Positions 38,387-58,771 of a stretch of DNA of 64,000 bases are shown here, piece by piece (the first letter of the stretch is position 1; each line of letters starts with the position of its first letter). Under the pieces are notes generated by a model. That model searched no databases and was not told where the DNA came from. It saw only the letters and a list, made by a program, of their open reading frames with translations. The stretch covers positions 186,001 to 250,000 of the forward strand of contig SOER01000001.1 of assembly GCA_021646405.1 (NCBI GenBank), in the 5' to 3' direction. Made by a program: the position numbers and the translations under genes. Origin of the DNA: Candidatus Loosdrechtia aerotolerans (GTDB lineage Bacteria; Planctomycetota; Brocadiia; Brocadiales; Brocadiaceae).

Positions 38387-38902
38387 TTAATATTTTATTA
38401 GTGAAAACACGTCATAATTACTTAATGTTTTTTTACCGTTAAGAAAGGTCAGCTCGATCAAGAAAGCGCAGCCAAGAATTTTACCGCCTAAGGATTCAAC
38501 CATTTCGCAACAGGCAGCCATGGTTCCGCCGGTTGCTAATAAATCATCTACCATAAGCACGCGTTGGCCTTTCTTAATACTGTCTTTGTGCATCTCGAGG
38601 GTATCGGTACCGTATTCAAGGGCATAACTCGCGCTAATCTTTTCAGAAGGAAGTTTACCGGATTTTCTGACAGGAACAAACCCTGCGCCGATATGGAAAG
38701 CAACAGTTGATGCCAGGATAAAACCGCGCGCCTCTGCTCCAACGACAATATCAATTTTTTTATCTTTATAACGGCTGGAAAGCTTCTCAATAGCCTCCCT
38801 CAACCCTGCAGGATCTTGAAATAAGGGTGTTATATCCTTAAAAACAATATCTTTTTTGGGAAAATCGGGAACATCACGAATTAATTCTTTTAATCTGCAC
38901 AT
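38387..38902 (-). CDS. apt: Adenine phosphoribosyltransferase
   Basis: A 171-residue purine-salvage enzyme that makes AMP from adenine and PRPP. The PRPP motif VLMVDDLLATGGTMAAC and the KDITPLF and EARGFI segments are typical. Length matches the family. It begins six bases after the stop of the sigma-factor gene, so it is the last gene of the cmk-rpsA-sigma-apt string. Confidence 0.95.
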   Translation of the reverse strand: MCRLKELIRDVPDFPKKDIVFKDITPLFQDPAGLREAIEKLSSRYKDKKIDIVVGAEARGFILASTVAFHIGAGFVPVRKSGKLPSEKISASYALEYGTDTLEMHKDSIKKGQRVLMVDDLLATGGTMAACCEMVESLGGKILGCAFLIELTFLNGKKTLSNYDVFSLIKY

Positions 38903-38908
38903 GTCTCT

Positions 38909-39802
38909 TTACACCCCTTTTGTTTCTTCTGTCTCTTTTTTTCCTTTTGCCTTTTTTGTACCTTTTCCCTTTTTTACTTCTTTTGTTTCTTCAACCTCTT
39001 TTGTTAATATGTAATGTAATTTTTGAATAGCTTCCTTTTCTATTTGTCGAACCCGCTCCCGGCTTATATGTAAGATTTTACCTACGTCTTCCAACGTCTT
39101 GGGCTTTCCATCTTCTAATCCATACCTCATCTTTATTACCAGGGCTTCCCTTTGATCTATGACTTCGAGGAGTTTACTCACCGCCTCTCTCTCATATGCT
39201 TCTTCTAACTCATCTTCGGGCGGGAGTGTTTTTTTGTCAGGAATGATACCACTCAGAGCCCAGATCAGATCAGAGCCTGTAACACCTGCCGTATCGAGCG
39301 AGCCTGTTGAATGTATCGCATGTTCAATTGCCTGCACTTTCTCGGCGGTTATATCCATCTTTTCTGCAATCTCAGCACGGCTTGGTAACCTCTCGAGTTT
39401 ATCAAGCAAATCGGAAGATGCCGTCTTTAAATGGGAAATTCTCTCGACCATATATGAAGGGATACGAACTGTTTTTGCTTTATCAGTTATAGCCCTCCGA
39501 ATTGCCTGTTTAATCCACCAGGTTGCATATGTACTAAATCTGTATCCGGTTGACGGGTCATACCCCTCTACAGCTCGAATTAGCCCTACATTTCCTTCTT
39601 CAATTAAATCTAAAAAGGAAAGCCCCCGGTTGATGTATTCCTTTGCTATACTAACAACCAGCCTTAGGTTTGCCCTGATTAATTTTTCCCGTGCCTTTAC
39701 ATCTCTTCCCCGGGCTTTTTCTGCTACTTCTTTTTCTTCTTCAGGGGATAGTAATGGAATCCTGTTAATCTCTTTTAAATACGTTTGTAAAGCAGTTTCC
39801 GT
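38909..39802 (-). CDS. Sigma-70 family RNA polymerase sigma factor, apparent ACG start
   Basis: A 297-residue factor with region 1.2 ([18 protein letters not shown]), region 2 (the [18 protein letters not shown] segment that melts and reads -10), region 3 and region 4 (helix-turn-helix [17 protein letters not shown]). Region 1.1 is absent and the last 30 residues are Lys/Glu/Thr-rich, beyond the family's usual end. The conserved frame runs up to a TGA, with no ATG, GTG or TTG before Met at 39451. An AAGGAG (39810-39815) is 7 bases from ACG 39802-39800, so I take ACG as start. A start at 39451 would remove regions 1.2 and 2. It is co-oriented with rpsA, 31 bases downstream of it. Confidence 0.8.
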
Positions 39803-39815
39803 AAAAACACTCCTT
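39800..39815 (-). promoter_or_regulatory. Shine-Dalgarno and ACG start of the sigma factor
   Basis: On the minus strand AAGGAG (39815-39810), seven bases, then ACG (39802-39800). The Shine-Dalgarno is near-consensus and its distance is right for this codon alone. The overlapping GTG opens a different frame that stops after 11 codons. Confidence 0.7.
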
Positions 39816-39833
39816 CAATTTAAGATAACAACA

Positions 39834-41588
39834 TTACTGAACATCTGGTATACTCATCTCCTTTTCTGTTGTATCCTGGGTTTTATCAGGCGATTGTTCT
39901 GTATCTGGACTAGAAAGCGACGTTATTTGGGTCTTCTCTTCCGTTGAATTAGATAATTTTTTAAGACTGAGCCCTATCTTTCTCGCTTCAGGTTCAATAC
40001 GGATAATACGAACTTCCAGTTCATCGCCAATATTAACAATATCAGCCGGATTATTAACCTTTTCATTAGAAAGTTCTGAAATATGAAGCAATCCTTCGAT
40101 ACCTTTATCAAGTTCAAGGAATGCACCAAAATTTGTTAATTTGGTAACTTTACCTTTTACAACATCACCGACTTTAAATCTTTCCGGAATCTCTTTTATC
40201 CAAGGATCGTCGGAAAGCTGTTTCAGACCCAAAGCTACCCTTTTTTTCTCACGATCGACAGATAACACTACGGCCTCAATTTTATCCCCCTTCTTTACAA
40301 TCTCTGATGGATGTCCAACCTTTTTTGCCCAGGACATATCGGAAATATGGAGCAGGCCATCCACACCTTCTTCAATCTCAATAAATGCGCCATAATTTGT
40401 TAAATTGCGCACACGGCCCTTGACCCGCGTTCCAGGCGGATATTTTTCTTCAATAACCGTCCAGGGGTTGATCTCTGTTTGTTTTATACTAAGAGATATT
40501 TCTTCTTTTTCTCTGTCTATTTTAAGGACAACAACCTCCACTGTATCTCCAATAGCTACCATTTCTGATGGATGGTTAATTCGTCTCGTCCAGGACATTT
40601 CAGAAATATGCACAAGACCCTCAATACCTGTTTCCAGTTTAACAAAGGCACCGTATGACATGATGTTAACCACCTGGCCTTTTACCCGGGACCCCACCGG
40701 ATATCTTTCTTCTATATATAACCAGGGGTTTTCTGTCTTTTGTTTTAGTCCGAGAGCAACTTTCTCTTTTTCCTTATCAACATCGAGTATCTTTACTTCA
40801 ACCTCATCGTCAATAGCAAGGATTTCGGAAGGATGACTTATCCTGCCCCAACTCATATCGGTGATATGGAGGAGCCCGTCTAATCCACCCAGATCAATAA
40901 ATGCACCAAAGTCTGCTATATTCTTAACAACTCCCTTTCTTACCTGCCCGACTTCGATTTCAGCCAATAATTCTTTCTTTTTCTTCTCACGGTCTTCCTC
41001 TATGAGCTTCCTTCTGGATACAACAATGTTTTGTCGTGCCTCATCAATTTTCAAAATCTTGCATGTTACTTCTTCCCCAATATATCGCGCAATATCACCG
41101 GGTGGTTTTACATCAATTTGAGAAGCGGGTAAGAATATCGGTACTCCCATATCTACAAGCAAACCGCCTTTGATCTTCCTTGTAACTCGTCCTGTTATAA
41201 TATCCCCTTCTTTGTATTTTTCAATAACTCTTTCCCAGCCGCGAATACGATTTGCTTTGCGCTTGGACAATTTAATGAGCCCTGAATCATCTTCAAGGGC
41301 TTCAAGTAAGACCTCTACTTCTTCACCAGTTTTTATCTCGGAAGGGTCGTCAAACTCTGATTTAGGAACCATACCCTCAGATTTATATCCGCAATCTACA
41401 ATCACATTATCCCCAAGGACACTCAGGACACGTCCTTTCAGAATAGCTCCTATTTCAAAATTCTGAATAGAATCATAATATTTGGACTCTACTTCCTTCT
41501 TAGTGTCCTCATCTCCCATGATCTCTTCAACTTCTTTTTCAACATCTTCTATATTTACATTATACTCTTTTAAAATATCACGACCCAT
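39834..41588 (-). CDS. rpsA: 30S ribosomal protein S1
   Basis: A 584-residue protein built of six S1 RNA-binding domains (about 90 residues each, from residue 25 to 540), the later four with the GAFIDL...GLLHISDMSW pattern. It binds mRNA 5' regions and helps initiation of weakly structured messages. The tail is Ser/Thr/Gln/Glu-rich. It follows cmk, the usual partner, by 101 bases, and precedes the sigma factor. GGAG lies about 12 bases before the ATG. Confidence 0.93.
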   Translation of the reverse strand: MGRDILKEYNVNIEDVEKEVEEIMGDEDTKKEVESKYYDSIQNFEIGAILKGRVLSVLGDNVIVDCGYKSEGMVPKSEFDDPSEIKTGEEVEVLLEALEDDSGLIKLSKRKANRIRGWERVIEKYKEGDIITGRVTRKIKGGLLVDMGVPIFLPASQIDVKPPGDIARYIGEEVTCKILKIDEARQNIVVSRRKLIEEDREKKKKELLAEIEVGQVRKGVVKNIADFGAFIDLGGLDGLLHITDMSWGRISHPSEILAIDDEVEVKILDVDKEKEKVALGLKQKTENPWLYIEERYPVGSRVKGQVVNIMSYGAFVKLETGIEGLVHISEMSWTRRINHPSEMVAIGDTVEVVVLKIDREKEEISLSIKQTEINPWTVIEEKYPPGTRVKGRVRNLTNYGAFIEIEEGVDGLLHISDMSWAKKVGHPSEIVKKGDKIEAVVLSVDREKKRVALGLKQLSDDPWIKEIPERFKVGDVVKGKVTKLTNFGAFLELDKGIEGLLHISELSNEKVNNPADIVNIGDELEVRIIRIEPEARKIGLSLKKLSNSTEEKTQITSLSSPDTEQSPDKTQDTTEKEMSIPDVQ

Positions 41589-58118: not shown

Positions 58119-58355
58119 ATGGCAAAAATACAAATAACAAACGCTGAAAACATACGAGATGCATTACGAAGATTCAAAAAAATGTGCGACAAAGAAGGTA
58201 TCATTAACCAATCAAAACGCATTGCTTATTTTGAAAAACCCTCTGAAAAAAGGCGCCGGGAGGAGAGCCGCAGGATTAAAAATATTAAAAGAGCCCAAAA
58301 ATTAGGTATTTCAGGGCTAGCAAGCTCAACTCGCCCTCAGAAAAGCAATTATTAG
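58119..58355 (+). CDS. rpsU: 30S ribosomal protein S21
   Basis: A 78-residue basic protein (Lys and Arg rich) with the S21 signature FKKMCDKEGIINQSKRIAYFEKPSEKRRRE. It joins the 30S platform near the anti-Shine-Dalgarno. An AAGGA is about 13 bases before the ATG, further than usual. Its TAG overlaps the end of the convergent rsfS gene by four bases (TTAG). Confidence 0.93.
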   Translation: MAKIQITNAENIRDALRRFKKMCDKEGIINQSKRIAYFEKPSEKRRREESRRIKNIKRAQKLGISGLASSTRPQKSNY

Positions 58356-58702
58356 CTTTTTTCCCACGGTAGTTTTGGAGCATCACCCCATAGAAGTTCC
58401 AGGTCATAATAGCGGCGTACATCTTTATCAAATAGATGAACAATAACATCTCCATAGTCCATGAGTATCCAGAGCGCCTCTGCATATCCCTCTCTACCAA
58501 GCATACGAATACCATAACTATGGAGTTTCAATTCTATTTCTGTCGCTATACTTTGTAATTGCCGTTTGTTCGTTCCACTACAAATGACGAAGAAATCTGT
58601 AAAAAAGGTTAATCCCCGCACATCAAAGATTAAAATACCCTCAGCCTTCTTATCATCGGCAATTCGGGCACACATAATTGCAATTTCTTCCGAATCTATC
58701 GT
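58352..58702 (-). CDS. rsfS: Ribosomal silencing factor RsfS, apparent ACG start
   Basis: A 116-residue protein that binds L14 on free 50S subunits and blocks subunit joining in starvation. Hallmarks: DKKAEGILIFDVRGL, TDFFVICSGTNKRQLQSIA, and WILMDYGDVIVHLF...RRYYDLELLWGDAP. The family's first helix extends upstream of the first in-frame Met (58675) as SEEIAIMCARIADD. Reading upstream, ACG 58702-58700 lies 6 bases after AAGGAGG (58715-58709); the only other initiator in frame is the ATG at 58675, which has a poor site. I take ACG as start. Confidence 0.8.
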   Translation of the reverse strand, partial: TIDSEEIAIMCARIADDKKAEGILIFDVRGLTFFTDFFVICSGTNKRQLQSIATEIELKLHSYGIRMLGREGYAEALWILMDYGDVIVHLFDKDVRRYYDLELLWGDAPKLPWEKS

Positions 58703-58715
58703 TTTATTCCTCCTT
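58700..58715 (-). promoter_or_regulatory. Shine-Dalgarno and ACG start of rsfS
   Basis: On the minus strand AAGGAGG (58715-58709), six bases, then ACG (58702-58700). This is a perfect Shine-Dalgarno with ideal spacing. ATG 58675 is 33 bases from it and has only GGAAG 11 bases upstream. Confidence 0.65.
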
Positions 58716-58771
58716 ACTTATGTATCATCTTTCCTTGTCCGTCTCTTTGGCCAAAATTATTCCCTTAGGAC

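Follow-up and report, generated by a model that had tools for sequence, protein, structure and literature searches.

Conserved ACG codons as the probable starts of rsfS and a sigma-70 gene in anammox bacteria

By the usual view, ACG cannot serve as a start codon. The question raised by the rsfS locus of Candidatus Loosdrechtia aerotolerans is whether this codon nevertheless opens a gene there. The window analysed is a stretch of 64,000 nucleotides (contig SOER01000001.1, positions 186,001 to 250,000) from a 3.26 Mb genome whose nearest named relatives are Brocadiales, for example Ca. Jettenia ecosi and Ca. Brocadia sapporoensis. On the minus strand of the window, an in-frame TAA (58718..58720) bars any start further upstream, as judged from the window itself and from the comparison of relatives, and between this stop and an ATG at 58673..58675 no in-frame ATG, GTG or TTG is present. 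Many relatives likewise lack a canonical codon between the stop and the start of the conserved protein. Exactly as the first-pass annotation had described, a Shine-Dalgarno (SD) sequence AAGGAGG (58709..58715, minus strand) lies six nucleotides 5' of an ACG (58700..58702, minus strand), the putative start, after which the codons read TIDSEEIAIMCARIADDKKAEG.

The identity of the protein is well established. Read from the ACG, the coding sequence (58352..58702, minus strand) encodes 116 amino acids and was assigned to RsfS by profile searches, with 106.4 bits for TIGR00090 (cut-off 56.9) and 106.8 bits for PF02410 (cut-off 21.6). The profile match is almost full length and above the curated cut-off, and solved RsfS proteins are also matched over nearly their full length. 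Residues 2-3 of the solved proteins pair in the alignment with residues 3-4 of the query, so their first methionine corresponds to query residue 2. In an AlphaFold2 model of the window protein, an N-terminal helix spans residues 4-17 (mean pLDDT 90.6).

This helix bears on the possibility that RsfS begins at the ATG of codon 10 (58673..58675, minus strand), the similarity upstream of it being untranslated. The codon is the first in-frame canonical one and the only one near the rsfS start in the window genome. Nevertheless, it is not conserved in the order, being missing in most relatives, and no good SD serves it. Since the predicted helix covers residues 4-17, a start at Met10 would truncate it by half, in agreement with the earlier expectation that this start would cut an N-terminal helix of the family, and such a start appears extremely improbable.

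The comparison of the start column was extended to 53 rsfS loci of Brocadiales, the anammox order, in which loci of one genus do not count as independent. The codon aligned with the window ACG is ACG in 44 of them, ACA in four, ACC in two, ACT in one and a codon other than threonine in two, unlike the internal threonine columns of RsfS, where ACA, ACC, ACG and ACT are freely mixed. Some relatives carry upstream in-frame canonical codons, a point against an ACG start. Of the 44 ACG loci, 25 have no canonical codon nearby. Such a codon is found in all nine loci lacking ACG vs 19 of the 44 that have it (Fisher p = 0.002, uncorrected for kinship).

The SD sequences belong to the same picture. At the rsfS ACG sites, a match of at least 5 nt is found in 39 of 44 cases and one of at least 6 nt in 25, with a spacing mainly of 6-8 nt and a peak at 7, although the SD is weak at a few sites. 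For ordinary ORFs of the sampled genome the corresponding values are at most 35% and 15%, both upper bounds with any canonical codon counted. A control on flanking genes found that about one fifth to one quarter of them show an SD with a near-cognate codon by chance, and the case of rsfS therefore relies on the conservation of a properly spaced ACG and not on SD matches alone.

It may also be asked whether initiation takes place one codon later, at the TTA, ATA or GTA of codon 2. Several loci without ACG have TTG at this codon, namely five genomes of one genus (g14), and the ATA, ATT and ATC starts of a lineage outside the order, described below, align with it. Codon 2 varies freely between loci (TTA, ATA, GTA, CTG, GGA, ACT), mostly with two mismatches from AUG, and is for this reason not the conserved element, whereas ACG is nearly fixed. 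As the spacing peak of 7 belongs to ACG and a codon-2 start would leave the sigma gene unexplained, initiation there is highly unlikely.

The sigma gene in question is the other case in the window for which an ACG start had been proposed. It encodes a sigma-70 family protein of 297 amino acids (38909..39802, minus strand) in which the four Pfam domains Sigma70_r1_2, r2, r3 and r4, corresponding to regions 1.2, 2, 3 and 4, all exceed their cut-offs; it falls short of the NCBIfam equivalog cut-offs for RpoD and RpoS and is thus placed to the sigma-70 family only. The frame contains no canonical codon over 121 codons in the window, and in many relatives, too, none precedes the conserved protein. 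Its candidate start, an ACG at 39800..39802, follows an SD AAGGAG (39810..39815) by 7 nt, and an in-frame TGA (39815..39817) overlapping this SD bars any upstream start, all on the minus strand.

In the order, the sigma start column holds ACG in 33 of 37 loci, and ACG is every threonine codon found there. Of the four other loci, three have an ATG upstream, while the fourth (L268) has ATG exactly where the other genes have ACG, which is the most direct comparative sign that this position would be the start. An SD match of at least 6 nt accompanies 22 of the 33 ACG codons. Taken together, the sequence comparisons argue strongly that the window rsfS and sigma-70 genes both start at ACG, as the first-pass annotation had proposed, and the conservation across the order excludes an accident of a single genome.

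The neighborhood of the sigma gene suggests a further explanation for its start. The gene for ribosomal protein S1, rpsA (39834..41588, minus strand), lies directly upstream, its stop 31 nt before the ACG, and the order rpsA, sigma-70, apt is kept wherever the flanks are readable (38387-41588 in the window; L241-L270). The ACG stands 18-59 nt after the S1 stop in 31 of 33 cases, a short gap that hints at a coupling of the sigma gene to S1, and the non-ACG sigma starts, only four in number, lie at 55, 142, 183 and 318 nt. The sigma ACG might on this ground work mainly by termination and reinitiation after the S1 gene. ACG is retained, however, at 145-190 nt in two loci (L263, L285), and the distances for rsfS are spread from 18 to about 290 nt, so widely that coupling cannot account for that gene. 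Reinitiation as the main route of the sigma ACG is therefore regarded as rather doubtful.

Two genes with the same pattern had also led the first-pass annotation to propose a class of ACG-start genes in this lineage. A genome-wide pattern search found 62 sites for AGGAGG-N5-8-ACG vs 104 for the reversed pattern, and 60 for AAGGAG-N6-8-ACG vs 121 reversed, hence no excess. Every SD and ACG site was checked by script and the candidates were read for an open frame without a usable canonical start ahead of a conserved protein; only rsfS and the sigma gene survived. The other scans covered sampled stretches. One for coding prefixes lacking canonical starts, over 1.38 Mb from the same genome and another one (G001), returned the same two genes as convincing, that is with a near-cognate codon and an SD at the gene head, SD matches shorter than 6 nt being censused within these 1.38 Mb only. 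A codon-enrichment test over all ORFs gave no ACG excess and was very noisy because SD-like runs lie within genes. Since SD-served ACG codons are rarer than the control and two genes are left after inspection, a broad class is not supported, and the ACG starts would be restricted to two strongly conserved genes.

Among the candidates that were set aside, guaB (at C61, AGGAGG-N7-ACG) has an SD-like run that lies within the gene, where it codes for EGGG, and 19 codons upstream there is an ATG preceded by an SD-like site of its own. Three further loci (L404, L452, L467) have an ATG next to the ACG. A frame of 109 codons without an assigned family (L507) is probably spurious.

How an ACG could be read was considered from the tRNA genes. 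Among 46 tRNA matches in the genome, two correspond to initiator tRNAs, both with a CAU anticodon, and none to an initiator with CGU; the CGU tRNA that is present is an ordinary threonine elongator and was rejected as a special initiator. The two initiator genes differ slightly from each other (L202, L210).

In plant plastids, ACG start codons are edited to AUG. The plastid genes share with the present ones an ACG at the start position, with the difference that there it is repaired by RNA editing. Editing of the mRNA from C to U would suit ACG, which is precisely the codon that it would repair, and the sigma gene of one relative does have ATG. Yet C-to-U editing at start codons is unreported in bacteria (PMC9845219). 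The rsfS and sigma sites share no context besides ACG, the ATA and ATT starts of other lineages could not be repaired in this way, and the probability left to editing is very small.

Our preferred reading, held with reasonable though not full confidence, is that a weak, conserved ACG is offset by a strong SD and gives a low, regulated output exposed to IF3. The comparison supports the position of the codon, the degree to which it is conserved, a strong SD and the lack of a CGU initiator tRNA. From there we infer that the ordinary CAU initiator would read ACG as formyl-methionine through one mismatch, a step that the strong and well-spaced SD would make possible. Initiation at so poor a codon would be low and exposed to the fidelity factor IF3. 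The levels of RsfS and of the sigma factor would accordingly be low and would rise once start-codon discrimination relaxes, in the manner of infC (AUU) and sigR (GUC). Control by start-codon discrimination as such is favoured by a narrow balance. In E. coli, assays of IF3 used ACG among the alternative initiation triplets, and with a non-initiation codon the progress to 70S complexes was negligible (PMC8266586); use of ACG by the E. coli machinery may thus be very poor.

An IF3-type control is made plausible by infC itself, which starts in the order at the near-cognate ATT in nearly all of 30 loci and at ATC in a few (L374-L403). RsfS is a uL14-binding protein that blocks the joining of subunits (PMC7125091), and it would make sense, as a hypothesis, for its level to be set by IF3 and the subunit balance.

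The ACG could also be a start without any regulatory meaning, a low output being tolerated and the codon kept by history. ACG has been lost, and canonical codons are used, in genus g14 and in a small number of genomes besides, so it is dispensable in them. However, a single transition would give ATG, and yet ACG stays in most genera and in two unlinked genes. The SD is moreover stronger at these ACG codons than at ordinary genes, and weak rsfS starts arise independently in other lineages. A purely historical ACG appears unlikely. Under the IF3-exposed reading, ACG is probably kept across the order to hold RsfS and the sigma factor low and regulated; any deliberate control, in the sense of the deliberate class suggested by the first-pass annotation, remains an inference.

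The weak starts outside the order are of other kinds. Among 31 rsfS genes from relatives of L053, a genome with the label Nitrospirales bacterium, 22 have ATA, ATT or ATC with an SD and without an SD-served canonical codon, and the recurrence of ATA in one lineage is hard to ascribe to chance. These starts (L313, L344-L373) align with codon 2 of the anammox rsfS. Of 30 rsfS genes from relatives of L071, a genome with the label Deltaproteobacteria, eight are of the ATA/ATT/ATC type, 15 have TTG, four GTG and one ATG. As the SD thresholds applied outside the order are loose, individual genes may be misread in these counts. The more general pattern would then be a preference of rsfS for weak starts, differing in kind and found in more than one lineage, rather than a class of ACG genes.

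Single loci add to this survey. Six deltaproteobacterial rsfS genes (L308, L318, L322, L338, L342, L343) apparently start at ATT while near relatives have TTG, and two from other planctomycetes (L292, L299) look like ATC and ATA starts behind an SD. In two rsfS frames (L358, L361) TTA comes after the SD and a near-cognate codon is absent. Apart from rsfS, an ORF that looks like a DUF2344-type radical-SAM-linked protein (L131, from 1692 onward, plus strand) lacks a canonical start ahead of the part that is conserved; a possible start is ATT.

Several known systems resemble these genes in part. infC, with its AUU, AUC or AUA start, is under autocontrol by IF3. Like it, rsfS has a conserved near-cognate start, a strong SD and a product that controls ribosome subunits; unlike it, rsfS has as its codon ACG, a second-position mismatch, and an autocontrol would be conjectural. 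The sigR gene of Streptomyces starts at a conserved GUC under IF3 repression, and the response loses its regulation once this codon is made canonical (PMC5472188). Here too a conserved non-canonical start behind a strong SD limits a sigma factor and would escape annotation, but its codon is GUC, it has an anti-sigma partner and its conservation was reported in one genus, whereas the anammox sigma gene keeps ACG across an order. In the same way, cvfC1 (AUU) and ccpN (AUA) of S. aureus are regulators with conserved non-canonical starts, an extended SD and a reduced yield (PMC13009471); these are other genes with other codons, mapped by experiment, while the anammox starts are proposed from sequence. 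The E. coli rsfS belongs to the same family and has a weak start, UUG (PMC10917681), which is however an accepted start codon. In the papers that were searched, we came across no gene of a bacterium whose start is a conserved ACG served by an SD.

Once confirmed, these starts would add one more codon to the bacterial set for starting proteins, and gene finders would be missing or truncating two control genes throughout anammox genomes. They would also point to a frequent regulation of RsfS by the weakness of its start codon, as with IF3. More tentatively, and as a view to which we give well under even chances, rsfS and infC may be ancient ribosome-state genes whose near-cognate starts, set by lineage (ACG, AUA, AUU, AUC or UUG), report the balance of IF3 and subunits, the anammox ACG being a true functional start that also sets the sigma factor. 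Were this so, ribosome silencing, initiation fidelity and transcription would be linked in anammox bacteria.
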